From assembly GCF_030412785.1 (NCBI RefSeq), contig NZ_CP125295.1, positions 3,472,001 through 3,536,000 on the forward strand: a DNA stretch of 64,000 nucleotides, given 5' to 3'. The notes beneath the pieces were generated by a model that searched no databases, was not told where the DNA came from, and worked only from the letters and a program-made list of their open reading frames with translations. Shown piece by piece: positions 33,460 through 63,632 of this stretch; position 1 is the stretch's first letter; each line of letters opens with the position of its first letter. The position numbers and the translations under genes were made by a program. The stretch comes from Paraburkholderia sabiae (GTDB lineage: Bacteria > Pseudomonadota > Gammaproteobacteria > Burkholderiales > Burkholderiaceae).

Positions 33460-34410
33460 TCATGGCCCGAACTGCCCGAAATACGTTTCGCGTTCGACGA
33501 TAACGAGCGCCGCGCGCTTGTGCGGAAAGTCGAACTCCTTCAGCGTATAAGCGCCCAGCCGATGCATCCACGCAATATGACGCGTGTGATCGATGCGCGG
33601 CTCGCCGACCAGGCGTTGCGTGCGCGGATCGTCGATAAACATGTAGTGCAGGATGCCGTTGAACCATGCGCGCAATTTTCCTGTGCTTTGGTAGTCGCTG
33701 TTACCGACGAGCAGATGCAGGCCGCGATCGAAATCGCCGGCATCGTAGAACGGCGCAATGCGGTCCTCTTTCGCCCAGTACACCTCGAAGTACGCGAACG
33801 GCACATCGTCGAAACAGCCGATCAGCGGATGCACATGCGGATCCGCGCATTGCTCGGTCAGATACGCCGCATGCTGCTCGCGCGTGCCCTTGAAGTCCCA
33901 GAAGTGCGCGACGCGATCGAGGTTCTGCCAATAGTGAAAGATGTCGGTGTCGCGCTCCACATTCACCGTGCGCAAGCTGAACGTCATGCCGACAGTCGGC
34001 ATGAAACGCCGATACACGACGCCCTCGGGCTTCGGTGCTCGCACGGGATGCCGCCGATTGTGATGCAGTGTGTAGCGCACCGGCGTGCCCGCCGAAGAAG
34101 GCGCGGCGAGCCACAACGACGGTTGCTGCCAGAAGGTCGCGCGCGAAGTCGTGAGCCGTAGCGTCGAGCCTTCGCGTGCCGCCGTGTCGACGATGCCCTC
34201 GCGAATCGCGCGCGTGACGAACGCCTGTGCTGCGTGATCGTCGAGTTCGAACGGCACGTTCAGCGACACCTGCTGCCGCTTCGCATCGCGGCAAAAAACC
34301 TCCGCGAGCGCGGGCAACAACTGCTCGGGCGCCGCATCGCGCGGCCACGCCGTCAGTGCAAAACCGTCGGGCGTCGGAACGAGTTCCTCAAAGGCCACGC
34401 GAGCGTTCAT
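33460..34410 (-). CDS. orbL: siderophore N-acyltransferase (IucB/AlcB-like), OrbL-type
   Basis: This 316-residue GNAT enzyme acylates the N5-hydroxyl amine of hydroxyornithine to make a hydroxamate. The motif HPLIGCFDDVPFAYFEVYWA is followed by KEDRIAPF and by DDPRTQRLVGEPR, the typical IucB/AlcB region at about residues 190-290. I chose the ATG at 34410, with an AGGAAG ribosome site. It is last in the siderophore operon. In ornibactin loci a formyltransferase gene precedes it, but here it directly follows orbA after 50 bp. It resembles orbK at the same motif positions. Whether acetyl or a longer acyl is used is unknown. Confidence 0.85.
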   Translation of the reverse strand: MNARVAFEELVPTPDGFALTAWPRDAAPEQLLPALAEVFCRDAKRQQVSLNVPFELDDHAAQAFVTRAIREGIVDTAAREGSTLRLTTSRATFWQQPSLWLAAPSSAGTPVRYTLHHNRRHPVRAPKPEGVVYRRFMPTVGMTFSLRTVNVERDTDIFHYWQNLDRVAHFWDFKGTREQHAAYLTEQCADPHVHPLIGCFDDVPFAYFEVYWAKEDRIAPFYDAGDFDRGLHLLVGNSDYQSTGKLRAWFNGILHYMFIDDPRTQRLVGEPRIDHTRHIAWMHRLGAYTLKEFDFPHKRAALVIVERETYFGQFGP

Positions 34411-34460
34411 GCTTGTCTTCCTTTCCTCAAATGATGCAGATGATTCGATAACCGATGCGC

Positions 34461-36683
34461 TTACCAGTCGTAGCGCGCTGTCGCCAGCACCGTGCGCTGG
34501 TTGCCGTAGAAACACGCGAACGCACTCTGGCAACCCGTCACATAGCGGCGGTTGAAAATGTTCGTCGCGTTGACCGCGAAGCGCCATTTGCTGATGTCAT
34601 AGTGCACGGCCGCGTCGTACACGGTATAGCCGGGCACATGCAGCGAGTTGTCCGACGCACCCGCGCTATAGCTCGTGTAACGCAAACCGCCGCCGAAACC
34701 GAGGCCCGTCAGCGGTCCCGTATGCCACGTCCAGTCCGCCCATAGCGAAGCCGTCTGACGCGGCAACGGAATCGCCACCGGCCACTTGTTCAGCGAATCG
34801 TCGTTGGCCTTGATGTTCTTCACGTCCTGATACGCATACGACGCGATGATGCTCAGGTCGCGCGTCACGTTGCCGACGGCACTGAACTCGATGCCGCGCG
34901 AACGCACCTCGCCCGTCTGCACGCTGAATGTGCCCGTTGGATCGTTCGGATCGGGCGTCGTGACGTTGGTCTGGTTGATCTGATAGATCGCGGCGTTCAA
35001 CATCAGGTTCTTGTTGAACGGCTGCCAGCGCAAGCCGAGTTCGATCTGCTTGCCCTTGGTCGGCTCAAACGGCGTGCCATCGGGATTGACGCCAATGACG
35101 GGATTGAACGACGTCGCATAGCTGATATACGGCGACAGCCCGTAATCGCCCAGATACACGGCGCCCACGCGATACGTGAACGCGTGATCGTTCTGCCTGT
35201 GCTCTGTGTTCGCGACAGTATCCGTCGTCGTATTGCGGCTCCAGTCTTCGCGGCCGCCAATCGTGAAGACGATGCGCGGCGTCAGCTTGATCTGGTCCTG
35301 CGCATAGACGCCGTAGCTGTCGAGCTTCGTTTTCGTATCGCTATAGCCGAACGAATTCGGTCCCGAGAAGATGTCCGACGTCACCGGAATGTAGACGGGG
35401 TTGAACATGTTCAGACTCGGCGCAAGCGCGAGCTGTTCGCTATCCGTCGACAGTTGCCGGTTGTACTCGAACCCGACCAGCACCGTATGATCGATCGACC
35501 CAGTGCGAAATTTCGCTTGCGCCTGATTGTCGATGTCGAAGCGCGAATAGTTCGGCTGGAACAGACCCGCATAGCGCGTGAGCGACGCTTCCGTCGGATC
35601 GGTGGGATCGAGACCGCCGCCATACACCGTCGAGTTGTTCAGCGACAGATGCATATAGCGCGTGTTCTGACGGAACGTCCACACCGGATTGAAGTGATGC
35701 TCGAAGTTGTAGCCGACCGACCATTGCCGCTTGTCGTAACGCGCGAAGTTGCCGTCGCCCGTATAGAGGTCGTTCGAAATCACGCCGTTCGGGTTCGGCA
35801 GTATCGTGCCGGATGCGGGCAGGAAGTTATCTGACACATCAGAGTTATCGCGCAGATACGTGGCGTAAAGCGTCAACGCGGTATCGGCCGTGGGTTGCCA
35901 TTTGATCGACGGCGCGAGCATCAGGCGTTGATCCGCGTTCGGACCTGTCGGCATGTTGCCGTCGCGTCCCACGCCGACGAAGCGATACGTCAGCGTGCCT
36001 TCCTTGTCGATCTTGCCGCCGAGGTCGATGCCGATCTGCTTGCGCGCATCGGTGCCGATCTGCAACTCGATTTCGCGGATACGTTCGGCTGTCGGCTGCT
36101 TCGTCTGGATATCGACGAGCGAACCGGGATCGCCTTGACCGTATAGCACGGATGTCGGTCCACGCAACACCGTGATGCTTTCGACCTGATACGGATCGAC
36201 ACGCCAGCTCGCCAGATTCAGCGTATTGGGCACTTGCAGCCCATCGACGAACACGCTCGGCGTAAAGCCGCGAATGGCCGTGTACCAGTCGGAGCGCGTA
36301 CTCGCGCCATACGACGAAAAGCCCGGCACATAACGCAGCGCCTGATTGATCGACGTCGCGCCCTGGTCTTCGATCTGCGCGGCGGTAACGACGTTCACCG
36401 TCTGCGGCACTTCATCGAGCGGCGTATCCGTCTTCGTCGCCGTCGACGTGCGATGCGCGACGAAGCCTTCCGTATCGCCCGCCGCTGCGCCTTGCACTTT
36501 CACGGCGGGTAGTGTCGTACCCGTTGCGTGATCCGTTGTTGCGTTCGATTGAGCATTGCCCTGCGCGCTGTTCTGATTATCCGGCGACTGTTGTGCCTGA
36601 GCGTAACCCGTCGCCGCAGCGAAGAAAGTCATGCTGGCTGCCGCAGCAATGGCACGCCGTTGCGTGCCTTTGACCCACTCCAT
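34461..36683 (-). CDS. orbA: TonB-dependent ferric siderophore receptor
   Basis: This 740-residue outer-membrane receptor imports the ferric siderophore. A signal peptide ends near YAQAQQ. A plug domain (about 65-190) contains VPQTVNVVTAAQIEDQGATS and is followed by a 22-strand barrel ending in the aromatic C-terminus ARYDW. No N-terminal signalling (STN) domain is present, so it does not act as a transducer like FpvA. It lies between pvdA and orbL in the siderophore operon. Length and architecture match FoxA/OrbA-type hydroxamate receptors. Confidence 0.93.
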   Translation of the reverse strand: MEWVKGTQRRAIAAAASMTFFAAATGYAQAQQSPDNQNSAQGNAQSNATTDHATGTTLPAVKVQGAAAGDTEGFVAHRTSTATKTDTPLDEVPQTVNVVTAAQIEDQGATSINQALRYVPGFSSYGASTRSDWYTAIRGFTPSVFVDGLQVPNTLNLASWRVDPYQVESITVLRGPTSVLYGQGDPGSLVDIQTKQPTAERIREIELQIGTDARKQIGIDLGGKIDKEGTLTYRFVGVGRDGNMPTGPNADQRLMLAPSIKWQPTADTALTLYATYLRDNSDVSDNFLPASGTILPNPNGVISNDLYTGDGNFARYDKRQWSVGYNFEHHFNPVWTFRQNTRYMHLSLNNSTVYGGGLDPTDPTEASLTRYAGLFQPNYSRFDIDNQAQAKFRTGSIDHTVLVGFEYNRQLSTDSEQLALAPSLNMFNPVYIPVTSDIFSGPNSFGYSDTKTKLDSYGVYAQDQIKLTPRIVFTIGGREDWSRNTTTDTVANTEHRQNDHAFTYRVGAVYLGDYGLSPYISYATSFNPVIGVNPDGTPFEPTKGKQIELGLRWQPFNKNLMLNAAIYQINQTNVTTPDPNDPTGTFSVQTGEVRSRGIEFSAVGNVTRDLSIIASYAYQDVKNIKANDDSLNKWPVAIPLPRQTASLWADWTWHTGPLTGLGFGGGLRYTSYSAGASDNSLHVPGYTVYDAAVHYDISKWRFAVNATNIFNRRYVTGCQSAFACFYGNQRTVLATARYDW

Positions 36684-36732
36684 CTAATACCTCGGAAAGT
36701 TTTCATGCAGCGCATCGCGCCGCTTGTTGTTG

Positions 36733-38133
36733 TCAAAGAGCGAATGCCATGCGGCCGCCGCTCACCCCGGTTTGCGCCCCTGTCTGCGCTTGCACTGCAA
36801 AACTGTTGTCGTTATTGCCCGCTTCGAGCGAGCCGGCGATCTCGTCTGCACGGCGCGCGAGCACCGAAAGCAGCGTGTCGCTCAAGCCATGGCTGTCTTC
36901 GCAGCAGCCTTGCAGATAGATGCGTGGCTGAAAATGCGCGGGCGTCGCGAGCAGATAGTCGCGCGCGACTTCGCATTGCTCGACGGGTTTGCCCAATGCT
37001 TCCGCAAGCGGATCGAGCAGCGTGTGATGCGCATCGCGCCGATAGCCCGTCGCCAGCACCACGACATCGAAGCGTTCCACCGCTGCATCGCCATCCATGC
37101 GGTCGCGCACACGCATTTCGATTTCGTTGCCGTCAACGGCTTGCACCTCGCGCACGGATTCGATCGCGCAGTTGTTCAACAGACGATGCCGCGATGCGCC
37201 GCTCACGTTCTGCACGTAGAGCAGTTCGAAGATCTGTTCGATCAACGGGCGATCGACTACCGAATAGTTCGTGTCGCGGAACGTATCGAGCAACGAACGG
37301 CGCGCGTCTTTAGGCTGCGAATAGATGAGATCCGTGAACGACGGATTGAAAATCTCATTGACGAACGGACTGTCGTCGGCGGGCTTCAACGCGGGCGCGC
37401 GCATCATCAAGGTTGCGTCGACGTGCGGGAAGCGGCGCGTCAGATCAATGAATACTTCGGCTGCGCTCTGACCGCTGCCGACGACGGCAACACGTTTGCG
37501 CTGCGCCATCTCGCGCGTTCCGTCGCCGACGAGATCGCCAATCGACGTGAGATAGCTCGACGAGTGAATCACGGCGGCATCGCGCAACGCCTCGAATGCA
37601 GCGGGAATCTGCGGCACGCCGCCCATGCCGACGGACAACGCGCGCGTCAGGCGATGACGTTCCTTGCCTTGCGCATCGCGCGAATGCACACGCAGATGCG
37701 CGACGGTGCGCGCATCGTTCGCGTCGGCCACGGGTTCGATCTTCGTCACCGATTCGCCGTAATGCACCTGATCGTCAAATGCACTTGCCACCCAGCGCAG
37801 GTAATCATGAAACTCGATACGCGTCGGATAGAAGTTCTTCAGATTGACGAAATCCTGCAGACGGCCACGCTCGAACAGATAGTTGATGAACGTGAAGCGG
37901 CTCTTCGGATCGCGCAGCGTGACGAGATCCTTGAGAAAAGAAATCTGCATGCGGCTGTCGTCGAGCAGCATGCCGCGATGCCAGCCGAATTCCGGCTGCC
38001 GTTCGATAAAGCAGTGCGCGGCCGGCGCACTGCCGTTCTCCGCGAGGCGCACGGCCAGCGCGAGATTCGACGGCCCGAAGCCGACGCCGATCAGATCGTG
38101 AATGTGTTCCCGTTGATTCATCAATTGAGTCAT
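36733..38133 (-). CDS. pvdA: L-ornithine N5-oxygenase
   Basis: This 466-residue flavin monooxygenase hydroxylates the N5 amine of ornithine as the first step to the hydroxamates. The FAD motif GVGFGPSNLALAV is at about residue 16. The NADPH motif VVGSGQSAAEVF is near residue 225 and ATGYRRDAHH lies near the C-terminal part. The start at 38133 has an AGGGAG ribosome site. It lies between orbK and orbA and should supply substrate to both acyltransferases and the NRPSs. Confidence 0.94.
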   Translation of the reverse strand: MTQLMNQREHIHDLIGVGFGPSNLALAVRLAENGSAPAAHCFIERQPEFGWHRGMLLDDSRMQISFLKDLVTLRDPKSRFTFINYLFERGRLQDFVNLKNFYPTRIEFHDYLRWVASAFDDQVHYGESVTKIEPVADANDARTVAHLRVHSRDAQGKERHRLTRALSVGMGGVPQIPAAFEALRDAAVIHSSSYLTSIGDLVGDGTREMAQRKRVAVVGSGQSAAEVFIDLTRRFPHVDATLMMRAPALKPADDSPFVNEIFNPSFTDLIYSQPKDARRSLLDTFRDTNYSVVDRPLIEQIFELLYVQNVSGASRHRLLNNCAIESVREVQAVDGNEIEMRVRDRMDGDAAVERFDVVVLATGYRRDAHHTLLDPLAEALGKPVEQCEVARDYLLATPAHFQPRIYLQGCCEDSHGLSDTLLSVLARRADEIAGSLEAGNNDNSFAVQAQTGAQTGVSGGRMAFAL

Positions 38134-38197
38134 CAAATGTCTCCCTTCTACCAATGGCGACGTACGTTGTGGGGGCGATACGAAACGCGACGCGACA

Positions 38198-39223
38198 TCA
38201 CAGATGCCTGCCGTCGAAGAACGCTTCGCGGATGACACGCATCAGCAGCGCCCGTTTGTGTGGAAAATCGAAATGCGCGATGCTCGAAAAGCCATGCTGT
38301 TTCAGGAAGTCGATCATGCGAACGTTGTCGTGACGCGGCTCGCAGACCACCGCCTGCGTGCGCGGATCATCGAGAAAGAGGTAATGCACGAGCGACGGCA
38401 GCCATGCCGCAACACACGCCGCACCGCGCCAGCGCGTATCGCCGACGAGCATGTGCAAGCCGCGCTCGAAATCCGTCGATGCTGCGAACGGCGCAATGCG
38501 GTCTTCCTTCGCCCAATAAGCCTCGAAGTAACCGAACGGCTCGCCGTCGAATGCGCCGATTAACGGATGCATATGCGGCGTCGACAACACGCGTTCGAGA
38601 TACGCGCGATGCGCGTCGAGCGTCCCCGCTTCGCCCCAGAAAGCGTTGACGCGCGGCTCGTTCATCCACGCGTGCAGATGCTCGAGGTCTTGCGCGACGG
38701 ACGCCGTACGCAACGTGAAGCGATGCCCGAACTCCTGCACATCACGCGCATAAACGACGCCGTCGACATAAGGCGCGCGCCGCGGATGCCGCGCGCCATC
38801 CGTCATCGCATAAGAGAGCGCCGCGACGGGCGCCGATGCAGCGCGCGTGAGCCACAAATCCGGCTGCTGCGCCCACGCGTCGCGCATGCAGACGTTTTGC
38901 AACGTCAGCACGCCGCTGTAACGCAGTGCATCGAGTGCATCACGCTGCAGCTTGCCAATATCGAGTGCAATGCTCTTGCTGTCGCGACTCGCGCCGAACG
39001 CCGCGCGCAACGCGGCCAATATCGCGCGACGTTGTCCGAGCGGCGAAATGCCCTTGCACCATTCGACGATGTGCATCCCGTCTTCGCGCGTCCAGCGTGC
39101 ATGCAACACGATGCCTTCCGCGCGGCCATCCTCCGCGACCGTGATCGCATCGCCCTCCAGATACGCCGCCAGCGACGGCTGCTTGAGCATGTTCATATCG
39201 TCCCGTGTGAAATCAGCGTGCAT
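38198..39223 (-). CDS. orbK: siderophore N-acyltransferase, OrbK-type
   Basis: This 341-residue GNAT enzyme of the IucB/AlcB type carries HPLIGAFDGEPFGYFEAYWA, then KEDRIAPF and DDPRTQAVVCEPR at about residues 215-310. I chose the ATG at 39223 for its GGAGG ribosome site; it overlaps the end of orbJ by 11 bp, so it is translationally coupled. It shares its motifs with orbL, and the pair would each acylate one hydroxyornithine. The N-terminal third is less conserved. Confidence 0.85.
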   Translation of the reverse strand: MHADFTRDDMNMLKQPSLAAYLEGDAITVAEDGRAEGIVLHARWTREDGMHIVEWCKGISPLGQRRAILAALRAAFGASRDSKSIALDIGKLQRDALDALRYSGVLTLQNVCMRDAWAQQPDLWLTRAASAPVAALSYAMTDGARHPRRAPYVDGVVYARDVQEFGHRFTLRTASVAQDLEHLHAWMNEPRVNAFWGEAGTLDAHRAYLERVLSTPHMHPLIGAFDGEPFGYFEAYWAKEDRIAPFAASTDFERGLHMLVGDTRWRGAACVAAWLPSLVHYLFLDDPRTQAVVCEPRHDNVRMIDFLKQHGFSSIAHFDFPHKRALLMRVIREAFFDGRHL

Positions 39224-42200
39224 CGCGCACCTCCGTAGCCGTTTCGCGTGCTTCGCGTTCGATGTTCGCGTCGAGTCGTTGCGCGAGCGCGCCCGCAAGG
39301 TCCGCCAGCGTTTGATGAACGAACACGTCGTCGATCGTGATGCCGTACCCTGCCGCATTCGCGGCATCGACGAAACGCACCACGTCGAACGAGGTCGCGC
39401 CTGCTTCGAATACGTTGTCGTCGATGCCGGGCGCTTCGCCGTCGAATGTATGAGCCCATATGCGTGCCAGCGTCTGCGTGAGTTGCGCGGCACGCGGCGA
39501 CGGTGCGCGAGTCGCGCTATTTGTCTTGATGCGATCCGGACTGTGCGTGTCGCCCGAAATGACAATCGCTTCATCCGGCGCGTCAATAAAACGCGTGACA
39601 GCGGCCAGATAATCGGCGCACAGACGCTCGACGAATGCACCATCGACGAGTTCGCGTCCATACGAAAACGCACCCGTCACACGGCCATCGGGATGCTCGA
39701 CGATATCGAGTTCGAGATCGAACACGACGCGATGACGCACGTCATTGAACTCGTCGACTTCGATGCCGTGCCACTCGCGGCTATCGCTTTGCGCCGGACG
39801 CAAGTAGTTGAACATCACCTGAAACAGCGGATTGCCGTTAGCTGTTCGCGACGCGCTCACCGAATCGACAACCTGCGCGAACGGCGCGGCCACATGCGCA
39901 TACGCGCCCAGCGCAGCTTCGCGTACCGCGTCGATGACGTCGCGCGGCGAAGCCGATTCGCGCATCACCGTGCGCACGACGACCGCATTGATGAACAGAC
40001 CAATCACGTCGTCGGTATCGCGGTCGCGAGTCGATGCAAGGACGCCGACGGCCTGATCGAGCGTGCCGATCTGACGCGCAAGCGCAACGTTCAGGACCGC
40101 GTGCAGCAGCATCGGCAAGGTAGCTTGCGTAGAGACGGCCAGCGCCTTCGCGCGTTCGATCGAATGTGCGTCCAGTTCGAATGCAATGCGGCCCGCACTC
40201 CAGTCAGGCGAAACGGGACGCGCCTGCGAAGGTTGCGGCAAACGCAGCGCCTCGACATCGCGCAACGCGTTGCGCCAGAAGTGCAGGTCGGCTGGTTTGA
40301 CTTGCGTGCGCGCAGCGAATGCGGGCTTCATCGGCGACGTGTTCAACGGCTTGCCCGTCGCGCTCGCAAGATAAGCGCTCTGCACATCGTTGAGCCACAC
40401 GTCGATCGACTGACCATCCGCGACGATGTGATGAATGACAATCGACAGTACGTGATCATCGTCGGCGAGACGGATCAGACGCGCGCGCCACAACGGCGCT
40501 TTGGCGAGATCGAACGGCGTGAGCGCGTCCTCGTCCGTCAGACGCGTCGCCGCTGCAATCCGCTCGTCCGTGGAAGCGAGTTCGCGCACGTCGACGACGG
40601 CCAGCGTCACGCGCTGGTGATCGTCGATCATCTGACGTGGTTCCGCAGCGCCTTCCGTCGACACGAGACGCGCACGCAATGCGGGATGCTTGCATGCCGC
40701 ATGATCGAATGCGCTTTGCAGTGCGCTCACGTTCAGCACGCCACGCAGACGCAGCGCGACGGGAATGTTGTAAGCGGCGCTGTCCGGCTGCGCGCGCCAC
40801 AAGAACCACAGCGCACGCTGCGCGTCGCTCAGTGCGAGATCTTTGACATCGTTCTCTTCCTGCGTATGGCGCGAGCTCTCGCGCACAGTAGCGCGCGGCG
40901 ACTCCGCGACGCGCTGCGCGTACGCAGCGAGCGTCGGCGCCTCGAACAATGTGCGCACGGCAACATCGTGCGAGAGACGTTCGCTGACCCGCGTCGCCAC
41001 GCTCACGGCTGCAAGCGAATGGCCGCCCAGTTCGAAGAAATGATCGGCGCGGCCCACACGCTCGACGCGAAGCACGTCGCACCAGATCTTCGCGAGCGCC
41101 GTTTCGATACCGGGCGCGGGCGCATCGAACGCGCGCTCGACGCGCACCGGCGCAGGCAACGCCGCGCGGTCGATCTTGCGGTTCGCATTGCGCGGCAACG
41201 CATCGAGCACGACGATGTGCGGCGGCACCATATAGTCCGGCAACGCGCGACGCAGATGGTCCGCGAGCGCATCGCCATCCACGCGCTTACTGCGCTTGCT
41301 CGCCTCTTCATTCAACTCGACATACGCCGCGAGCGCCGCATCCACGCCGCTGCCTCGCACGACGGCCACGGCGTCGCGCACATCGTCATGTGCCATCAGA
41401 CGCGCTTCGATTTCGCCAAGCTCGATTCGCAAACCGCGCACCTTCACCTGATGATCGATGCGCCCCACGAACTCCAGCACGCCATTCGCGCGACGCCGCA
41501 CGAGATCGCCCGTGCGATACAGCCGCGCGCCCGGCGCGCCGAACGGATCGGGCATGAAGCGTTCGGCCGTCAGCGCAGCGCGTGCGTGATAGCCGCGCGC
41601 AACGCCAGTGCCGCCCAGATACAGTTCGCCCGTCACGCCGATCGGCAACGGCCGCAGATTCGCATCGAGCACATGCGCGGTGCGCTCGCCGACAGGTGTG
41701 CCGATGGGCAGATACGCGGCATCGGCGATATCGGTCGCGTCTTCGTGCGCGTCGATCATCCATAGCAACGGCGTGATGACCGTCTCCGTCGGACCATATC
41801 CGTTGACGACGCGCACATCGGGAAACGCCTGCCGCAGCGCCGAGAAAGCTTCACGCGAGGTCGCTTCGCCGCCCACCGTCAGCGAGCGCAGCGAACGCGG
41901 CGCGCCATGCGCGCGGGCCCACTCAGCCATTTGCAATGCGTAGCTCGGCGGGAACGCAGCAATCGTGATCCGTTCGCTCGCGAGCGTTTCGCATGTTTGC
42001 GCGGGCGGCCAGAGCGCGTCGTCGGTGATGCGAATATCGACGCCTGCCGACAACGGCGCGAGCCAGCATTCGTGCGCACCGTCGAAATTGATCGACATGA
42101 AATGCAGCACGCGGTCCTTCTCGCGCATGCCGTAGCGCGTGACGATTGCCTCGCAGTGCATCGCGATCGACGCATGATCGACGACGACCCCTTTCGGTTT

Positions 42201-44210
42201 GCCCGTCGAACCCGATGTGTAGATCAGATACGCGGCCTGAGTCGGCGCAATCGACGGTGCGCTATACGCGATGTCTTCTTGCGCCGCATCGTCTTCCGCA
42301 TCGATCAACCACACGCGCGTGCCGTGACGCAGCGGCAGCTTCGGCACGTGACGTCGTTCGGTGACGACATGCTCGATCGACGCGTCGTCGACGATATGCG
42401 CGAGACGTTCGCGCGGATGCGTCGGATCGAGCGGCACGAACGCGCCGCCCGACTTGAGAATGGCGAGCAGACCGACGAACAGATCCGTCGAGCGCCCAAC
42501 TGCAATCCCGACCCGCACTTCCGCGCCGACGCCCGCCGTCATCATGCGAGCCGCGAGACGCGCGGCGCGTGCATCGAGTTCGGCGCGCGTGAGCGTCATG
42601 TCGGCGTCCATCACCGCGCTTACATCAGGCTTCTTTTGCGCGTGTTCCGCCAGCTTCACGTGCACCGGCACGAAGGGTGCACCGTCAGTTTCGTAGCTGT
42701 TCCATGCGTCGATCTGTGCGCATTCTTCTTCCGTCAACCAGTCGAGATCGCCGACAGGCACTTGCGACGAAGCGAGCGCGCTGTCGAGCAACTGCGCATA
42801 CTGGTCCGCGATTCGCTGCACCGCCTGTGCGTTGAACAGATCGGCCGAGTAGACGAACGCTGCATCGAGCGCGCCGTCTTCGCGCTCCTCGAAACCCAGT
42901 GTCAGGTCGAACTTCGCATACGGTGCGCCGAACGGCAGATCGGTGACGCGCACGCCGTCGAATGCGGGCACCACGCGCCCCGCCGCGTATGACGCCATGA
43001 CCTGAAACAGCGGATGATGGCTCGCGCTACGCGGCACGCCGAGCGCTTCGACGATCTGCTCGAACGGCACGTCCTGATGCGATTGACCGTCGACGAGTGC
43101 ACGCTGCACGTCGTCAATCAACGCATCGAATGGCTTGCGCATATCGACGCGTGCGCCGACCACCAGCGTATTCACGAAGAAGCCGATCAAGCCCGCCGTT
43201 TCCGCACGTTCGCGGTTCGCAGCGGGCACGCCAATCTGGATATGCGTCTCGCCGCTCGCTCGCGCGAGCAACGCGTGCAGGGCAGCGAGCAACACGGCGA
43301 ACGGCGTCGCGCGACGCGCCTGCGCGAGCGCACGCACGCGCTGCGCGGCCTGCGCATCGATCGTGAAGTAATGGCGGCCACCGCGCGCGCTGCGCTGCAT
43401 CGGACGCGCGCCGCTGCCGGGCAATGCGATCACGCCTGCATCGGCGTTCACCTGCTCGCGCCAGAATTGAAGCTGTCGCCCGGCCTCGCCCGCATCGAGC
43501 CAGCGCCGCTGCCACAGCGAGAAATCCGCGTATTGCACGGGCAACGGCGCGAGCGCGACCGTCTCGCCGTTTGCGTACGCGCGATAAAACGCCGCCAGTT
43601 CGTCGAGCAACACGTCGATCGACCAGCCGTCCGAGACGACGTGATGCATCGTCAGCACGAGCCAGTGCGTCGTGTCGTTCAGCGCGATCAGGTGCACGCG
43701 CACGAGTGCGTCACTGGCGAGATCGAAAGGCTGCTCTTCGTCTTTCACCGCGACGTCAGCCGCGATGCGTTCGCGGTCCGCTTTCGCTGCGCGCGACAGA
43801 TCCGTGAAGCGCCACGGGCAGCGCGACGGCGCATGCACGATCTGCTCGACGCCGCCGTCGGCGGATTCCGCGAACGTCGTGCGCAATGCTTCGTGACGCG
43901 CGATCAACGCATCGAATGCGTGACGCAGCACCGCGCGGTTCAGTTCGCCGTCGAGCCGCAACCGGCTCGTGACGTGATACGCCGCCGGTTCGTCGATCAT
44001 GCGCGCATGCAGCCAAAGCCGCGTCTGTGCGAACGACGCGGGCACTGCCGACGAGCGGTCCGCGCGCGCGGGAATCGGCAGCATGCGGAAGTCGATGCCA
44101 GCTTCGGCGAGCTTCGTGATGAACAGCTTGCGCTGCGTGTCGGGCAATTGCGCGAAACGCGCGGCAAGCGCCAGCAGATCGGGAGTGGATTTCATTCGAT
44201 CGTTCCTCAT
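39213..44210 (-). CDS. orbJ: NRPS OrbJ-type, C-A-T-C-T
   Basis: This 1665-residue synthetase adds the last residue. Domains in order: condensation (about 30-450, HHVVSDG), adenylation (about 500-1000), carrier (LGGHSLAAVS near 1058), condensation (about 1120-1540, HHIVADGQS) and a C-terminal carrier-like domain with FEAGATSFDVV near 1602. The adenylation specificity code reads DGEATGGITK (last Lys assumed), like module 1 of orbI, so an N5-acyl-hydroxyornithine is expected. No thioesterase or reductase is present; release may occur by condensation with an amine, as proposed for ornibactin with putrescine. The start overlaps the orbI stop (ATGA). A second ATG at 44195 has a better ribosome site. 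Confidence 0.92.
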   Translation of the reverse strand: MRNDRMKSTPDLLALAARFAQLPDTQRKLFITKLAEAGIDFRMLPIPARADRSSAVPASFAQTRLWLHARMIDEPAAYHVTSRLRLDGELNRAVLRHAFDALIARHEALRTTFAESADGGVEQIVHAPSRCPWRFTDLSRAAKADRERIAADVAVKDEEQPFDLASDALVRVHLIALNDTTHWLVLTMHHVVSDGWSIDVLLDELAAFYRAYANGETVALAPLPVQYADFSLWQRRWLDAGEAGRQLQFWREQVNADAGVIALPGSGARPMQRSARGGRHYFTIDAQAAQRVRALAQARRATPFAVLLAALHALLARASGETHIQIGVPAANRERAETAGLIGFFVNTLVVGARVDMRKPFDALIDDVQRALVDGQSHQDVPFEQIVEALGVPRSASHHPLFQVMASYAAGRVVPAFDGVRVTDLPFGAPYAKFDLTLGFEEREDGALDAAFVYSADLFNAQAVQRIADQYAQLLDSALASSQVPVGDLDWLTEEECAQIDAWNSYETDGAPFVPVHVKLAEHAQKKPDVSAVMDADMTLTRAELDARAARLAARMMTAGVGAEVRVGIAVGRSTDLFVGLLAILKSGGAFVPLDPTHPRERLAHIVDDASIEHVVTERRHVPKLPLRHGTRVWLIDAEDDAAQEDIAYSAPSIAPTQAAYLIYTSGSTGKPKGVVVDHASIAMHCEAIVTRYGMREKDRVLHFMSINFDGAHECWLAPLSAGVDIRITDDALWPPAQTCETLASERITIAAFPPSYALQMAEWARAHGAPRSLRSLTVGGEATSREAFSALRQAFPDVRVVNGYGPTETVITPLLWMIDAHEDATDIADAAYLPIGTPVGERTAHVLDANLRPLPIGVTGELYLGGTGVARGYHARAALTAERFMPDPFGAPGARLYRTGDLVRRRANGVLEFVGRIDHQVKVRGLRIELGEIEARLMAHDDVRDAVAVVRGSGVDAALAAYVELNEEASKRSKRVDGDALADHLRRALPDYMVPPHIVVLDALPRNANRKIDRAALPAPVRVERAFDAPAPGIETALAKIWCDVLRVERVGRADHFFELGGHSLAAVSVATRVSERLSHDVAVRTLFEAPTLAAYAQRVAESPRATVRESSRHTQEENDVKDLALSDAQRALWFLWRAQPDSAAYNIPVALRLRGVLNVSALQSAFDHAACKHPALRARLVSTEGAAEPRQMIDDHQRVTLAVVDVRELASTDERIAAATRLTDEDALTPFDLAKAPLWRARLIRLADDDHVLSIVIHHIVADGQSIDVWLNDVQSAYLASATGKPLNTSPMKPAFAARTQVKPADLHFWRNALRDVEALRLPQPSQARPVSPDWSAGRIAFELDAHSIERAKALAVSTQATLPMLLHAVLNVALARQIGTLDQAVGVLASTRDRDTDDVIGLFINAVVVRTVMRESASPRDVIDAVREAALGAYAHVAAPFAQVVDSVSASRTANGNPLFQVMFNYLRPAQSDSREWHGIEVDEFNDVRHRVVFDLELDIVEHPDGRVTGAFSYGRELVDGAFVERLCADYLAAVTRFIDAPDEAIVISGDTHSPDRIKTNSATRAPSPRAAQLTQTLARIWAHTFDGEAPGIDDNVFEAGATSFDVVRFVDAANAAGYGITIDDVFVHQTLADLAGALAQRLDANIEREARETATEVRDAR

Positions 44211-47200
44211 TGCGCTTCGAGTTCACCGAGCAGCGCGTCGATTGCGCGCGCTGCGTCGTCGATTGCATGCACGCCGCGCGCGTCGAGCGCCGCATCGATG
44301 GCCGCCGCGCAGCGCGCCAGCGTGCGCGCGTCGAACAGCGTGCGCAGCGGCAGCGCGAGCGACCAGTGCAGATTGATTTGCGCGTTCACCTGCGTCGCGA
44401 GCAGCGAGTGACCGCCCAGTGCGAAGAAGTCGGCATCGCGGCCAATCGCGTGACTGCCGTCGATGCGCAGCACGCGCTGCCAGATCGCGGCCAGATCGCG
44501 CTCGGTGTCGGTTTGTGGTTCAGCCTCGTCCGTCGATTGAAGCGATGGCGTGGGCAGTGCGTTGCGGTCGCACTTGCCGTTCGGCGTGACGGGCAACGCG
44601 TCGAGTTCGATCAAATGCGCGGGCACCATGTACGCGGGCAATTGCGCATTCAGCGCTGCGAACAGCGCGGATCGATCGAACGCTTCTTCGGCGCGCCGCG
44701 CGACATAGCCGATCAACTGTTCGTCGCGCACGATCACGACGGCATCGTGTACGCCGGGCGCAGCACGCAACAACGCTTCGATTTCGCCCGGCTCGATGCG
44801 CAGGCCGCGCAACTTCACTTGCTGATCGGCGCGGCCCAGATAGTCGAGCACGCCGTCCGCGCGTCGACACACCAGATCGCCCGTGCGATAGAGACGCGCG
44901 CCCGGCGTGAACGGGTCGGGGACAAAGCGCTCCGCCGTCAATGCCGCGCGCCCGAGATAGCCGCGTGCGAGACCGACACCACCCAGATACAGTTCACCGA
45001 TTGCGCCCGCAGGCAACGGATGCAGCGCGGCATCGAGCGCGTGCAACTGAATGTTTGCGATCGGCTCACCGATCGGCACCGCCACGGCTTGCGCATCGTC
45101 GTCGGTGCACGTCCAGTGCGATACGTCGATCGCGGCTTCCGTCGGGCCGTACAGGTTGTGCAATTGCGCTTGCGGCAGTAGAAGCCGCGCACGCGCGACG
45201 AGCTCAGGCGACAGTGCCTCGCCGCTCGCCACGACGCGCACGATGCTCTCGCACTGCGCAGCGGCATCGAAGTCCTTCAGATGGCCGAGAAACGCGCCGA
45301 GCATCGACGGAACGAAATGCAGCGTCGTCACGCCATATGCTGCGATTGCAGCGGCAAGGCGCGCGGGATCACGATGATCTCCGGGCGCCGCGATGGCGAG
45401 CGTCGCGCCGACCGACAGCGGCCACACGAATTCCCACACCGACACGTCGAAGCCGAACGGCGTTTTATGCAGCACAACGTCGCGTGGCGTGAGCGAGTAC
45501 GCGCCCTGCATCCACGCGATGCGATTCGCGAGCGCGCGATGCGTGTTGCCCGCGCCCTTCGGCTTACCCGTCGATCCCGACGTGTAGATCAGGTAGGCAA
45601 GCTGATCGGGTTCGACATCGATGCTCGATTCGAGCGCCGGATTCGAAGTCAGTTGTTCGACACACAGCACGCACGCGTCCGCACGGCCAATCGAATCGAC
45701 GACACGCGCATGCAGCGCACGTTGAGTCAGCACGACGGCAGGCCGCGCATCGTCGAGCAGATACGCGATCCGTTCCGCCGGATAGTCGGGATCGACGGGC
45801 AGGTATGCCGCGCCAGCCTTCAACACGCCGAACAGCGCCACCACCATGTCAATCGAGCGCTCGACACACAGCGCGACCACACTGTCCGCCGACACGCCTG
45901 CGTTCAGCAGCGCACCTGCCACCCGGTTCGCGCGCTCATTGAGTTCGGCGTAGGTGACGCGCGTGCGAACTTCACGGGCATCGATGAAGTCGAGTGCGAT
46001 CGCATCAGGCATCGCTGCTGCATGGCGTTCGAACTGCCGATGAAGCGGCAATTGAAGTTCATCCGGCCACGTGCGCGCGGTGTCGTTATGGCTGGCAAGT
46101 TGTGCCAGATCGTCTTGAGTCGCAATCGATACGTTGCCAAGCAATGCATGCGGATCGGCGATGAATGCCTCGATGCATGCGTCGAACGCGCGATGCAACG
46201 CACGCACGCGCGCTTCGTCGAGACGCGCGGTGTCGTAGCCGTAATCGATCGTCAACGTGTCGCCGGCCTGCACGACCAGCGTGACGGCGAGATCCGTCGA
46301 TTCGATGCTGCGAAGGTCGGACAGCCGCAACGCGAGCTCATCGTTCGCCGACCACGCGGGATCGACGGGATAGTTTTCGAACACGACGAGCGTGTCGAAC
46401 ATCGCGCCGCCGCCCTGGCCCGCCCAACGCTGGATATCGAAGAGCGGCGTGTGCGCGTGTTCGGCGTTCGCTGCGTTGTCGCGTTGCAGATCGGCGAGCC
46501 AGTCGGCGATGCGACGTTGCGGTGCAGGCGTCGCGATCACGGGCAACGTGTTGATGAAAAGACCGAGCACGCTGTCGACATCGGGTAGCGCATCAGGCCT
46601 GCCCGCAACCGTCGCGCCGAATGCGACCGTCGCGTGGTGTGTCATGCGCTGCAATGCGAGCGCCCACGCGCCCTGCACGAGCGTGTTGACCGTCAGCTTG
46701 AGATTGCGCGCGAGCGCGGTGAGCTTCGCGGTCGTGCTTGCGTCGAACCGGGCACGCCAGGTTTCGCTGGGCGCAGCATCGCCGTTATCGGCCGATACGT
46801 TCGGCGCAACGAGCGTGGGTTCGTCGAAGTGCGCGAGGCGTTCGAGCCAGAACGCCTTGTCGGCTTCATGATCGCGCGCGTCGAGCCACGCGATGAAGTC
46901 GCGATATCGCAAGCGCGTTGCCTGGCCGAACGACAACGCGCGACGCTCGCTCATATAGTCGCGCAGCACGTCGGCGAACATGCGCGCCGTGCTCCAGCCG
47001 TCGAGCAGCAGATGATGGCGCGTCCACACGAGGCGCCATTCGTCGTCACTCAGACGGATCAGCGTCACGCGCATCAACGGCGCCTTGCTCAGATCGAAGC
47101 CTTGCGCGCGGTCTTCCCTGAGCCATTGCTCGAAACTCGCTGCCTGCGCGGCGCGGCCGCGCCAGTCGAGCACGACGACGGGCAGCTTCGCCTGACGATG

Positions 47201-50200
47201 CACGATCTGCAACGGCACTTCAGCGTCGTGCCAGAAGCTGGTCCGCAATATATCGTGCTGCGGCACGATGCGATTGAACGCATCGGTCACACGCGCGATA
47301 TCCGGTGAAGTCAGCGTAGCGACGAGCTGATTTACATAGGTCGTGCGATCCGGTGCATACAGCGAGTGGAACAGAATGCCCTGCTGCATCGGCGACAGCG
47401 GATAAATATCGTCGACGGTACGCAGATCGAGTTCGAGACGCTCGAGCATCGCTTGCGTGAGACCCGCGCGCTGCGCAAGCGGGAAGTCGGAAGGCGTTGC
47501 GCTGGCTCCGCGCTTCGACACGCGTTCGATGCACTGCGCCGCGATTTCACGCAACGTGGTTTCGAAGCGGCGCGCGAGCTTTTCGACCGTACCCGCGTTG
47601 AACATCGCTGCGCTATAAACCCAATGCATCTTGAGCCTGCGCGTACCGTCGATATGCGCGTGAATCGCCAGTGCATTCGACATCGGACCCGCCGGATCAC
47701 GCTCGCAGCCTGCGCCGCCGAAGCGCGCATTCAGCACGCGATCATTCGATGCATCGCCGAACTGGCCGAGATAGTTGAACGTCACGCGCGGACGCGGCAA
47801 TGCGGCGAGCGCAGCGCGCGTCGATTCGTTCGCGAGATAACGCAGCACGCCGAAGCCGAGCCCTTTGTGCGGCACAGCGCGCAATGCGTCCTTGACGGCC
47901 GCGAGCGTCGCCGTGCCCCATTCACGCACGGGCAACGCGACCGGATAGTGACTCGTCAGCCAGCCGATCGTGCGGCTCGCATCGACCTCTTCGAACAGCG
48001 CTTCGCGTCCGTGGCCTTCGAGTTCGATCAGTAAAGAATCGGCCGGTACGCTCGTGCCAAGCGTGTGCGCGAGCGTGGCCACGAGCAGATCGATGGTCTG
48101 CGTGCGCCATGCGGCGTTCGCATCCGTGAGCAAGGTCTGCGTGAGCGTCGCGTCGATCGTCCATTCGACCGTGCACGCATCGGCGTTGCTTGCGGTGCCG
48201 TGCGGATTGTCGAATGGCAGCGCCGTGCTTGCCTGCTTCATCGATGTCCAGTACGGCAGTTCTCGCGCAAACAGCGCGGCTGCGTCGGCGGCAAGACGTT
48301 GCGCCCAGTCCGACGCGCGCATGCCCTCCCCCGCGAGACGCACCGGACGGCGCTCGCGTGCCGCGCGATAAGCCGCCTCGAGATCTTCAAGCAGCACACG
48401 CCACGACACGCCATCGACGATCAGATGATGAATCGCGATCCATACACGCGGCGTGCCATCCGGCAACATCGCGACGAGCGCACCTGCAAGCGGTCCGCGT
48501 GTGAGATCAAAGGTGCGTTGCAACTCGTCGAATTGAGCGAGCGCATCATGTTCGTCACGCGCTTCGACGGCGACCAGCGGCAGCGCGTCGAATGGCTTGT
48601 CGGCGTATCGCGCGCTCCACGATGAAGCTGTGTCTGCCGCAAAGCGCAGTCGGAATGCATCGTGATGGGAAAGCACCGCGCCGAATGCGTGCGCGAAGGC
48701 GTCGAGATCGAAGCGCTCCGATGCGTGCAATTCGACAGCCTGATTCCAGTGATGACGCGCCGGCACATCCAGTTCGAAGAAGCGATGCTGAGCAGGCGTC
48801 AAGGCAATGCGCGCATCGTTCGCAGGCACAACAGCGGCACGCGTTTCCGCTTTCGGTTCAGCTGCGGCGACGGTCTGTGCGACTTGCGCGAGTTGAGCCA
48901 CGGTCGGCTTGTCGAACAGCTGCTTCGGCGTGAAGCGCACGCCTCGTTTGCGCGAACGCGCGATCACCTGCAACGCGAGAATCGAATCGCCACCCAGCTC
49001 GAAGAAATTGTCGTCGCGGCCCACATGCTCGGCGCGCAGCACTTCTTTCCACACGTCCGCGAGAATGCGTTCGATGCCTTCGAGCGGCGCGTCGCTCGTC
49101 AACTGCACTACAGGTTGCAGCGCAAGTTCGCGCAGCTTCGCACGGTCGATCTTGCCGTTCGCCGTGACGGGAAAGGCGTCGCAGAGCGTGAGCGTCGCGG
49201 GCACCATGTAGTCGGGCAAACGCGCGGCAAGCTCTGCGCGCAGCATCGCTTCATCGCGCGAGCCTTGCATGACGACAAACGACGCAAGACGTGCACGCCC
49301 ATCCTCGACGATTGCGAGCGTCTCTGCCTGCCTGACGCCTTCGATCGCGCGCAACGTCGCGCTGATTTCACCCGGCTCGACGCGATAGCCGCGAATCTTC
49401 ACCTGGTCATCGAGACGGCCCAGATAGTCGATTGCACCGTCTGCGCGCAAACGCACGCGGTCGCCCGTCCGATACATCCGCGCACCCTTCGGCCCGCTGG
49501 CGTCCGGCACGAAACGCTCCGCCGTCGCTGCCGCGCGATGCAGATAGCCGCGCGCGACGCCGGGTCCGCCAAGATACAGTTCGCCGATTCCGCCGACGGG
49601 CACGGGCGCGCCATGCACATCGAGCACTATCACGCGTGCGTTCGGCAACGGACGCCCCGTGGGCACGCCAGTCGATGCGTTTGCGGCGCTCAAGCTCGCT
49701 GTCGCATCGAACGTGAGTGCGCCAACCGTGGCTTCCGTCGGACCATAGTGATTGATCACGCGGCACGCGGGGCGCAATCCGGTGATCCGTTCGACGAGCG
49801 TCCACGGCAGCGGCTCGCCGCCCAGCACGAGTGCATGCGACGGCAGCACGGCCGTGGGTTGCTGCGCTTCGAGCAACGCATGCAGATGACTCGGCACGAT
49901 CTTCAGCACACCGACGCCGCGTTCGCGCATCGTCACAGCGAAACGGTCGGGATCGAACGCGCATTCCTTCGGCAGCAGATGCAAGGTGCGGCCCGAGCAC
50001 AACGCACCGAAGAGCGTCGTATGCCCGAGATCGGCGGCAACCGTCGAGACCATCGCCATGCTAGCGTCGGGCGCGAACTTCAGTTCGTCGAGCATGCCCT
50101 GAACGTAGTCGGCCAGCGCGCGATGCGATACGACGACGCCCTTCGGCGTGCCCGTCGAACCCGATGTGTAGATGAGATAGGCAGCCTGATCCGGCGTGAT

Positions 50201-53200
50201 CGTTACGGGCGCGTCGTGACTGTTCGCTTCGATCAACGCGTTTAGCGATAAGACTTCAGTTTCGACCTGCAGTGCATTGCTCGCGACGATTACGCAGCGC
50301 GCACCGCATGCGCGAATCGACGCTTCAAGGCGTTCGCGCGGCGCAGCAGGATCGAGCGGTACGGCCATCGAGCCCGACTTCAATACTGCGAGCAGCGCGA
50401 CGACGAAATCGACAGAACGCTCGATGCACAGTGCGATTGCCTGTTCCGCGCCCGCGCCCTTTTCGAGCAATGCACGCGCGGCGCGCGATGATGCTTCGTT
50501 CAAGGCTTCGAATGTGAGTTGCCGTTGTGAGTCGGTGACTGCGATCTGCTTCGGCGTCGCATTCGCGTGATGCGTGAAGGCTGCGATCACGTTGTCGAAT
50601 TCGAATGTTTTCTCGCGGCCTTGCAGCGTGTTGCTCAGTAAACCTGCACAAGCGAGCAAACTGAGAGGCGATGCAGGATGCGCCACGCTGTCAGTCAGCA
50701 GCGCAATGAAACTGTCGAGCCACGCATGCGCGGTCGCATCGTCGATGCAATCCGTCGCCCATGCAGCGACCAGTTCGATACCGCGTGCATCGTCGGTGAA
50801 ATCGAGCGCGAAGTCGAAGCGCGCCGCGTTGTCGGGACCGGGCGTCAATGTCGCGACGGCATCGGGCAACGCAACGGGATCGTCGAACACGAACTGCTGC
50901 GCGAACTTCACACGCAACCATTCCTCGCCTCGCCGCACAGGCGGCTTGACGGCATCGATCACCTGATCGAAGGGAATGTCCTGATTCGCGTAGGCGCCGA
51001 GCGTCGTGTCTCGCACTTGCGAGAGCAGATCGGCAAACGATACATGCGGTGAAACGCGCGCACGCAACGCAACGGTGTTGATGAAAAGACCGAGCAGGTT
51101 GGCCGTTTCCTCGCGCTGCCTGTTCGCAACGGGCGCGGCAACGATCACATCCGTCGCCGCCGTCAGACGATGCAGCCATGCATGAAGCGCTGCGAGCAAC
51201 ACGATGAACGTCGATGCATGCGCGCCGCTTGCAAGTTCGCGCACAGCCGCCGATAAACGCGCATCGAGACGACGCGACGCGCGCTTGCCGATGAGCGTGC
51301 GTTCGGCAGGCACAGTGCGATCGACAGGCAACGCGAGCGGCGCGGGCGCATCCTTCAACGCATCACGCCAATAAGCAAGTTGCCGTTCGCGTTCTGCACC
51401 GTCGAGCCAGTGGCGCTGCCATTGTGCGAAATCTGCATATTGCGCGGCGAGCGTAGGCAACGAAGCCGCACGACCTTTCGAAAGCGCCGCATAGGTTTCG
51501 GCCAGTTCAGCGAATGCGCAACGCGACGACCAGCCGTCGCTGATCGCGTGATGCGCAGTCAGCATCAGACGATGCTCGTCATCGGCAAACGTGACCAGCG
51601 ATGCGCGCAGCAACGGGCCGCGTTGCAGATCGAAAGGACGTGTGGCGTGTTCGCCCGCAAGCTCGTTCGCGCGCTCGTTGCGTGCGTCGAGCATCAGATT
51701 GCGCAGATCGATTCGTTCTACAGGCACCGCGATCCGCGCATGAACGCGCTGCATGACGATGCCGTTCTCGTCTTCGTGCAGCGTGGTTCGCCACGCTTCA
51801 TGGCGTTCGATCACTTGCGCGAGCGCGCTTTCGAGCAACGCAGCATCGATCGATCCGCGAATGTTCCAGTGCGCGGCGATGTGATAGGCGTCGCCGGCAT
51901 CGCGTGTTTGTGCGAGTACCCAGAAACGCTGCTGCGCAAACGACGCGCGATGATCGACATACGCGGCGGAAGCATCTCCGCGAGCCATCGCTTTCAACGG
52001 AAGCACTTGCACGGCGGCTTCACGCTCGCTTGCATCGACGAGTGCGGAGAGTGCTTCGAGCGTAAGGTCGGCGAAGAGAGAATCCAGCCGCAAGTTCACA
52101 TGCAGGTCCGCGCGAATCGCAGCCTGCAGACGCATGATCGCAATCGAATCGCCGCCGCGTGCATGAAACCGGTCATCGAGACCGACAGGTCCGTCACCGA
52201 GAATCGCTTGCCAGATTGCGGCGAGCGTGCGTTCAATTGAGCTTTGCGGCTCGCGATACGACACTTGCGCGACCTGCGACGCAACACGCGCACGCAACGC
52301 TTCACGGTCGAGCTTGCCATTCAATGTATAAGGCAACGCATCGAGCAACGCAAAACGATGCGGCTGCCACGCATCCGGCAAACGCTGCGTCAGGTGCTCG
52401 CGCAGCGCGCTTTCTTCGAGTGCTTCCGTTACGACGACACAAGCCGTCAATTGAACACGACCTGCAATGTGCTCGACCAGCACGGCTGCATCGCGCACAT
52501 CCGGATGTGAACGCAAAGACTGCGCGATCTCACCTGGCTCGACGCGCACGCCGCGAATCTGCACCTGATCGTCGATGCGGCCCATGTAATCGTATGCGCC
52601 GTCGGTGCGCAAACGCGCAAGGTCGCCCGTGCGATAGACGCGCGATCCCGGTTCGCCATTTGCATCGGGGATGAAGCGTTCGGCCGTTTGCGCGGCGCGT
52701 CCGTGATAGCCGCGCGCAAGACACGCGCCGCCAAGCAGCAGTTCGCCGCATGCTCCATGTTCAATCAAAGCGCCATCGACGGAACCCGCCTCCGTCATGC
52801 GTGCCACGCGCAATCCGATCGGCGCGCCGATCGGCAATGATGCGCACGACGTGTCTTCATACGCTGCGCGAGGATCGAGCGGCCACAGCATCGGCGAGAT
52901 CACGGTTTCAGTCGGACCGTAGCCGTTGATCAGACGCACGTTGTTAAACGTTTGCCGGATTTCGCCGAATACATCGCCGGGCATCGCTTCGCCACCGAAT
53001 GCGAGCACGCGCAGCGAATCGGGTACACCATGACGCCGCGCGGCTTGCGCGAACTCGCGCAGATACGCAGGCGGAAACGCGGCAATCGTCACGCGCTCGT
53101 GATGGATCAGCGCGCGTGCGTCGTCCGGTGCAACGGTGCCGGGCGCGGTTATCGCAATGCTCGCGCCCGCAGCGAGCGGCGCGAGCCAGTACTCGTGCGC

Positions 53201-53809: not shown

Positions 53810-53895
53810 TCGTGTGAAATCCTTCGGCATGGCCGCTATGCCGCCGCATCGGGACATGGTTTGTCCACGTCTCTTTTCAGCGGCTTCACACAGGT

Positions 53896-60712: not shown

Positions 60713-60714
60713 CG

Positions 60715-61740: not shown

Positions 61741-61769
61741 GACGTGTCCTCGGTTGCAGGCCGCGCCCG

Positions 61770-62003
61770 TCAGCGCGCGTTCGATGCAGCGTCCATGTGA
61801 CGGCGCAGGCTCGCGGGGCGCATATCCGTCCAAACGCTTTCGATATGTTCGAGGCACGCGGCTTTCGGCCCGCGCACGCCGACTTCGCGCCAGCCCGCGG
61901 GCACGTCGCGGAACGTCGGCCAGATCGAATACTGTTCTTCGTCGTTGATGACGACCGTGTATTGAACGTCGTCCTGTGCGTCTTGATGCGTGTTCTGGGT
62001 CAT
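61770..62003 (-). CDS. orbH: MbtH-like NRPS chaperone
   Basis: This 77-residue MbtH-family protein supports NRPS adenylation domains. The motifs NDEEQYSIWP, VPAGWREVG and CLEHIESVWTDMRP are the family signature. It is the first gene of the importer/modification operon. An OrbS-type promoter lies about 100 bp upstream, within the end of orbS. Three tandem 11-bp repeats lie in its leader. Confidence 0.96.
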   Translation of the reverse strand: MTQNTHQDAQDDVQYTVVINDEEQYSIWPTFRDVPAGWREVGVRGPKAACLEHIESVWTDMRPASLRRHMDAASNAR

Positions 62004-62023
62004 ATCGTGTGTGCTTGCGTATC

Positions 62024-62056: not shown

Positions 62057-62080
62057 GGTTGAACGTTTGCCTTCGTCGAT

Positions 62081-63623: not shown

Positions 63624-63632
63624 TCGATACGC

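Follow-up and report, generated by a model that had tools for sequence, protein, structure and literature searches.

The DNA of interest, a 64,000-nucleotide window of the Paraburkholderia sabiae genome (assembly GCF_030412785.1, contig NZ_CP125295.1, forward-strand positions 3,472,001–3,536,000), contains a complete ornibactin-like siderophore cluster. The cluster lies on the minus strand, running from window position 62815 down to 33460; its ABC exporter gene alone is on the plus strand. The last four minus-strand genes encode, in order, (i) OrbK (PhmK; 38198–39223, 341 aa), the second of two N5-hydroxyornithine acyltransferases, (ii) PvdA (36733–38133, start inferred), an L-ornithine N5-oxygenase, (iii) OrbA (34461–36683, 740 aa), a TonB-dependent ferric siderophore receptor, and (iv) OrbL (PhmL; 33460–34410, 316 aa), an N5-hydroxyornithine acyltransferase of the GNAT type. 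On the same strand are the genes of two non-ribosomal peptide synthetases (NRPSs): OrbI (44207–53857), with adenylation (A) domains A1–A3, and OrbJ (39213–44210), which has a single A domain (A4), two thiolation (T) domains and two condensation (C) domains, the second C domain presumably adding putrescine. Below we present evidence that the cluster has no pvdF-type formyltransferase gene, that it is of the phymabactin (phm) type, and that it probably directs synthesis of a siderophore in which both hydroxyornithines are acylated.

The orbA stop codon and the orbL ATG are separated by 50 bp that contain no formyltransferase gene, nor is there one elsewhere in the window. This had been claimed in an earlier note on this DNA, which also assigned an IucB/AlcB motif to OrbK and OrbL. 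Taking the Pfam family Acetyltransf_8 (PF13523) to be meant, both proteins indeed match it (180 bits for OrbK, 169 for OrbL), and they are the only proteins of the whole genome to do so at E ≤ 0.001. PvdA is the sole strong ornithine hydroxylase of the genome (E = 8e-124), with five further family matches at E = 9e-10 or weaker.

The earlier note had suggested searching the whole genome for pvdF, and the absence of the gene holds at that scale. A Burkholderia cenocepacia PvdF query returned three matches at E ≤ 10 from the 9.9-Mb genome and no homologue; the best match (E = 0.038) is a 39-residue piece within a 4729-aa NRPS frame on C3. The same query recovered PvdF in 5/5 pvdF-bearing genomes (E = 6.7e-97 to 9.6e-169), and gave no match at E ≤ 0.1 in 4/4 genomes of pvdF-less loci (L016 genome excluded). 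Seven proteins match the formyltransferase family PF00551: PurN, Fmt, three PurU-type proteins, one NF005414-type formyltransferase and one formyltransferase domain embedded in an NRPS. On these searches, we rejected the presence of a PvdF homologue at another genomic location. The NRPS-embedded domain was likewise rejected as a source of formyl-hydroxyornithine, given its weak local match to PvdF and the lack of a second strong hydroxylase in the genome. In the 4729-aa frame that carries it (G000:C3:43814-44149), Formyl_trans_N and Formyl_trans_C domains precede a partial C domain and an A domain, an arrangement reminiscent of start modules that N-formylate their substrate, like the one for linear gramicidin. 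Separately, a genome with no PvdA match at E ≤ 1e-60 contains two adjoining PvdF-like fragments (G128:C2:371436-371866), probably the remnant of a lost cluster.

Loci from related bacteria were collected by a PvdA scan, in which the best 80 of 107 confirmed stretches were taken, corresponding to 79 distinct loci in named genomes. Family counts refer to the 58 Burkholderiaceae and Collimonas loci among these (L016–L074 minus L072), with L072 and the actinobacterial loci L075–L094 excluded. pvdF is present in 53 of the 58 loci and absent from five: three near the window's cluster (L016, L017 and L018) and two from Trinickia (L055 and L068). Within the window's own genus, a PvdA-like gene (E ≤ 1e-60) occurs in 33 of 144 genomes, comprising 11 of the phm kind (75–100% identity, the window's own counted), 15 that are LB400-like (66–69%) and seven that are more distant. 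PvdF was found in 15/15 LB400-like genomes and 0/11 of the phm kind; the 10 phm-kind relatives tested yielded just two weak matches, at E = 0.09. Besides these genomes, the phm kind is also seen in L016 and the two Trinickia.

These distributions bear on the idea that the locus is an ornibactin cluster in decay after loss of pvdF. The presence of PvdF in most of the family fits such a history; against it, the reading frames are open, 11 genomes of the genus have the type, and the ratios of nonsynonymous to synonymous substitution rates (dN/dS) of phm-kind orbK, orbL and pvdA are 0.09–0.12 (orbL, 0.09). Furthermore, Paraburkholderia phymatum, which carries the named phm cluster, is reported to make a siderophore, phymabactin; a phmJK deletion has also been published for it (PMC10991261). 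On the recurrence of the type and the low dN/dS, decay was rejected as extremely improbable.

The first line of evidence for double acylation concerns the two acyltransferases. Their nearest solved structures include SidF, BH2621 and Rv1347c/MbtK; the likeness to SidF and Rv1347c/MbtK is seen in matches to 7qf6 (E = 1e-41 for OrbK, 5e-48 for OrbL) and 1yk3 (5e-16 and 1e-15). SidF, a fungal enzyme, and Rv1347c/MbtK use other acyl donors. His130 and Asp168 of Rv1347c (1yk3) align with the RGLH-motif His and the EPR-motif Glu of OrbL, and with those of OrbK via the family alignment. His130, like His248 of Schizosaccharomyces pombe Sib3, is reported to be needed for activity, while Sib3 Glu286 is dispensable (PMC11424930). 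OrbK and OrbL of the window both carry the catalytic His and Glu, which are kept in 16/16 phm OrbK rows (14 distinct), 14/14 phm OrbL rows (12 distinct) and 39/39 OrbL rows of the ornibactin kind; this count is made without the partial OrbK of L019 and the weak or short OrbK-like stretch of L024. The 22 remaining rows all have the His; at the acid site, 18 have Glu, three Asp and one Val. In a tree that includes 21 of the 120 OrbL relatives listed, the window's OrbL groups with ornibactin OrbL.

A different picture emerges from OrbK of the Burkholderia cepacia complex (Bcc), in which Arg and Ala occupy the catalytic His and Glu sites in 24/24 rows (as they do in the OrbK of L051), and from which an FDFPHKR segment is missing. 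This suggests that OrbK of the Bcc ornibactin producers may be catalytically dead. The loss of the catalytic residues fits with the report that some ornibactin producers lack orbK or carry an internal deletion in it (PMC5681537) and, if OrbK is indeed dead in the Bcc, would explain why the gene can be dispensed with there. The earlier note had emphasized that the locus keeps two acyltransferases. Both genes are present, but this in itself is not unusual, as Bcc ornibactin loci also have orbK and orbL (PMC5681537); the contrast with these loci lies not in the number of acyltransferase genes but in the missing catalytic His and Glu of Bcc OrbK.

The second line of evidence comes from the substrate pockets of the A domains. 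Pocket codes were obtained with a script that reads nine positions, the tenth (Lys517) being added rather than read; at the nine read positions, the script reproduces the published codes of all four A domains of strain LB400. The codes of the window are DLEAAGGISK (A1, predicted acyl-hydroxyornithine), DLTKVGHVGK (A2, beta-hydroxyaspartate), DVWHVSLIDK (A3, serine) and DGEATGGITK (A4, predicted acyl-hydroxyornithine). A4 reads DGEYTGGITK in 52 of the 53 pvdF-bearing survey loci, the remaining one (L019) having no readable OrbJ, and DGEATGG(I/V)TK in 14/14 pvdF-less loci of the family (5/5 survey loci, the window, and 8/8 further genomes). That is, position 278 of A4 is Tyr where pvdF is present and Ala where it is not. 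A1 codes divide along similar lines: DLEAAGGISK in 11/11 phm-kind loci and DAEAAGGISK in 7/7 of the ornibactin kind (both with Ala278 and Ala299), versus DVETLGGISK, with Thr278 and Leu299, in 4/4 of the malleobactin kind. At A1 and A4 alike, formyl goes with a larger residue (Tyr278, or Thr278 plus Leu299) and acyl with Ala. We infer that residue 278 is in contact with the capping group and that Tyr at this site keeps acyl groups out. Among the loci examined, only the phm type combines two intact-looking acyltransferases with two acyl-type pockets.

If this reading is true, residue 278 provides a one-residue sign for formyl- versus acyl-hydroxyornithine, a distinction that current predictors reportedly cannot make: a 2024 study states that its pipeline, like any other, cannot separate formyl-, acetyl- and cyclo-hydroxyornithine (PMC11444679). 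No A-domain codes for acetyl-hydroxyornithine were found in the accessible text of PMC4219678 and PMC12195549. Neither did we find a statement of the A4 Tyr/Ala split in the text of the literature searched, where Figure 3 of PMC5681537 may already show a pvdF-less phm cluster.

The A4 pocket also speaks to the possibility that the second hydroxyornithine (Orn4) is formylated by a housekeeping enzyme, such as Fmt or the NF005414-type protein. Candidates exist in the seven PF00551 proteins, and formylation of an already completed peptide by Fmt has been reported from a different strain of the Burkholderiales (PMC10587159). However, none of the seven is PvdF-like beyond weak local matches, and the pocket is unlike every pvdF-associated A4 read; we consider housekeeping formylation very improbable.

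The cluster is, judging by its sequence, of a type that already has a name. Its extracytoplasmic function (ECF) sigma factor gene (orbS/phmS-like; 62081–62815, minus strand) comes first in the cluster. Beside it, the phmS Fur box known from the literature, GTAAACGCGAATCATTCTC, occurs without a mismatch (62862–62880, plus strand; PMC10991261), as a 19-mer for which a mean of 0.03 matches would be expected at ≤3 mismatches. The same box is found exactly in genome G079, taken to be P. phymatum STM815, in which OrbK, PvdA and OrbL are 89%, 90% and 91% identical to those of the window, PvdF is absent (best E = 0.086), and A1, A2 and A4 have identical codes. There are two differences: the A3 code of G079 is DVWHTSLIDK, one position away from that of the window, and it has no orbA between pvdA and orbL, where the gene lies in the window. 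(L016 shares the latter feature with G079, while close relatives have orbA in the window's position.) Because Fur box, gene content and A1/A4 codes match the P. phymatum phm cluster, we assign the window's cluster to the phm type. As for the latter type, an orbK-type acyltransferase is present, and A1 and A4 are unlike those of ornibactin and malleobactin; this was judged from the codes, which are identical to those of G079, and not from the published Asp/Cys predictions. The earlier note's description of the cluster as a likely variant of the ornibactin family thus holds in so far as it is an ornibactin relative, but it is not a new type, phymabactin having been named earlier.

One reported phm feature differs. 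The P. phymatum cluster, located on chromosome 2, was described as lacking orbL (PMC4906002), and yet orbL is present in both the window and G079. Given its presence in G079, and a figure legend stating that the third gene and the last were overlooked in the initial annotation (PMC5681537), the reported absence looks like an annotation gap. As to the product, fragmentation spectra of the P. phymatum siderophore fitted no known ornibactin or malleobactin (PMC4906002), in line with a double-acyl structure. UHPLC-MS of free, iron-bound and aluminium-bound phymabactin has been reported, together with a link between the siderophore and aluminium tolerance (PMC12297923); the capping groups therefore bear on metal binding. 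No phymabactin structure was found in the literature, figures and supplements being outside the search; phymabactin is merely mentioned in PMC13184526 and PMC9023288.

The window's cluster resembles the ornibactin loci of the Bcc and Caballeronia in gene order, NRPS layout, possession of an OrbL relative, and an acyl-type A1 (DAEAAGGISK in those loci). It differs in that ornibactin loci have PvdF and the formyl-type A4, in that Bcc OrbK is without the catalytic His and Glu, and in that most Caballeronia survey loci have no OrbK. With malleobactin (mba) loci, such as that of Paraburkholderia xenovorans LB400, it shares a tetrapeptide assembly line and the A2 and A3 codes; there, however, a formyltransferase takes the place of the two acyltransferases, and both A1 (DVETLGGISK) and A4 (DGEYTGGITK) differ. 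A locus recorded as Burkholderia multivorans WS-FJ9 (L051) has a malleobactin-type A1 together with PvdF; OrbL is absent, and its OrbK is missing the catalytic His. Either its species name or the origin of its cluster looks odd.

Together, the acyltransferases and the pockets provide two independent lines of sequence evidence from which the missing chemistry of phymabactin can be predicted. In the proposed pathway, (i) PvdA would make N5-hydroxyornithine, (ii) OrbK and OrbL, using acyl-CoA as donor, would cap its hydroxylamine by acylation without the help of a formyltransferase, (iii) OrbI would load one acyl-hydroxyornithine (A1), beta-hydroxyaspartate (A2) and serine (A3), (iv) OrbJ A4, with Ala278 in place of the Tyr of formyl-using relatives, would load the second acyl-hydroxyornithine, and (v) the last C domain would release the chain with putrescine. 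The product of the phm-type cluster would then probably be acylOHOrn-OHAsp-Ser-acylOHOrn-putrescine, with both hydroxyornithines acylated and neither formylated. Its calculated [M+H]+ would be 651.331 with two acetyl groups, 695.357 with 3-OH-butyryl and acetyl, 723.388 with 3-OH-hexanoyl and acetyl, 739.383 with two 3-OH-butyryl groups and 751.420 with 3-OH-octanoyl and acetyl, compared with 681.341, 709.373 and 737.404 for products of the ornibactin type, in which Orn4 is formylated. The acyl groups at both ends, their chain lengths, and the assignment of enzymes to positions are what we infer from the sequence. The earlier note had predicted acyl rather than formyl groups on both hydroxyornithines; this remains the best reading of the A4 change from Tyr278 to Ala and of the two intact-looking acyltransferases, but two such enzymes are not strictly needed for it.

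The last point concerns the division of labour. Most likely, OrbL serves the first hydroxyornithine (Orn1) and OrbK the added acyl group at Orn4, yet OrbK may serve both: two 4.1-Mb genomes of the genus (G024:C2:110000-125000 and G053:C2:115000-130000) carry a phm cluster with OrbK alone and the same A1 and A4 codes. Each has a single further PF13523 match, which is weak (E about 1e-6) and similar to one in LB400 (G151). The same double-acyl product could hence arise with OrbK acylating both hydroxyornithines and OrbL adding chain-length variety on Orn1. We regard this arrangement as somewhat unlikely; OrbL is kept in nine other phm-kind genomes of the genus, in L016 and in both Trinickia, its dN/dS is low, and it groups with ornibactin OrbL.

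Alternatively, the hydroxylamine of Orn4 could stay free and be oxidised to a nitroso or nitro group, a fate reported for certain malleobactins. Sequence alone assigns no capping enzyme to Orn4, which leaves room for this outcome. On the other hand, the cluster encodes a pair of acyltransferases whose catalytic residues look intact, and Ala instead of Tyr at position 278 points to a roomier pocket than an uncapped residue would need. An uncapped Orn4 is, in our estimation, quite improbable.

Several observations weigh against double acylation, or soften the evidence for it. Firstly, G024 and G053 have acyl-type A1 and A4 and OrbK but neither OrbL nor PvdF, so two acyltransferases are not strictly required. 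Secondly, since the acid residue of Sib3 is dispensable (PMC11424930), only the loss of the His is strong evidence of inactivity in Bcc OrbK. Median dN/dS of Bcc orbK is 0.24, compared with 0.20 for orbL and 0.15 for pvdA; being only slightly above that of orbL, it indicates that selection still acts on Bcc OrbK, which may retain some role. Thirdly, the pvdF-bearing loci form one clade in the PvdA tree (53 rows, 99/99), so the pocket pattern stands for roughly a single event in each of A4 and A1, rather than for dozens of independent tests. Fourthly, a test of position 278 in the 20 actinobacterial loci yielded no usable comparison: at E ≤ 1e-5, a PvdF relative was seen in 0/20 and an OrbL/OrbK relative in 1/20 (L086), and the A domains picked up belonged to other kinds. 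The sole outside case is L072 (Pseudomonas fluvialis), a cluster that differs from the window's; its locus, to which the PvdF search was confined, encodes one acyltransferase and no PvdF, and DGECTGGVTK is the code read from three NRPS A domains there. Its product is possibly a siderophore with several acyl-hydroxyornithines. Finally, the text of PMC12297923 gives no mass or structure of phymabactin.

In stating that the locus lacks a formyltransferase, the earlier note implied a loss; the gene is absent, but the trees do not decide between loss in the phm type and gain elsewhere. An A-domain tree with A1 as outgroup places the pvdF-less A4 domains basally and the Tyr278 group as one clade on a long stem; of 200 bootstrap trees, 2% show the pvdF-less A4 as one side of a branch. 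In a tree with additional outgroups, built without the nine pocket columns, the latter figure is 14%, and a single clade is not rejected by the approximately unbiased (AU) test (p = 0.429). The best OrbL tree also puts the pvdF-less forms basally; a single phm clade has 34% support and is again not rejected (AU, p = 0.46). In the PvdA tree, outgroups join the pvdF-less side, but via long branches at open forks (its group table mislabels the actinobacterial L075 and L076 as pvdF-bearing, which does not affect the 53-row clade). Malleobactin A1 domains form one clade (100/100) grouped with and inside ornibactin A1 (99/96), with weak inner forks (86/61, 86/72).

Outgroup residues at position 278, namely Ala in ornibactin and phm A1 and Cys in L072, lean towards a gain of pvdF. 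A tentative history, which we hold to be slightly more apt to be wrong than right, would have the double-acyl phm type as ancestral to the ornibactin–malleobactin family. PvdF and Tyr278 would have been gained once, giving ornibactin, and a later change in A1 would have given malleobactin; OrbK would then have become superfluous, losing its His in the Bcc as a possible pseudo-enzyme. Were this true, A-domain position 278 would tell formyl- from acyl-hydroxyornithine.

The remaining genes of the cluster lie between orbI and the sigma factor gene. An orbE-like ABC exporter gene (54074–55867, plus strand) is followed, all on the minus strand, by genes for an orbB-like periplasmic binding protein (55955–57061), an orbF-like ferric reductase (FhuF; 56953–57755, start not fixed, its domains being residues 351–524 of ORF 56953–58575), an orbD-like FecCD permease with two domains (57756–59870), an orbC-like ABC ATPase (59867–61099, translation probably starting further downstream within the ORF), an orbG-like TauD dioxygenase (60715–61857), presumably the aspartate beta-hydroxylase, and an orbH-like MbtH protein (61770–62084). 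Directly upstream of the sigma factor gene, also on the minus strand, is a 4'-phosphopantetheinyl transferase gene (62928–63635), which may belong to the cluster.

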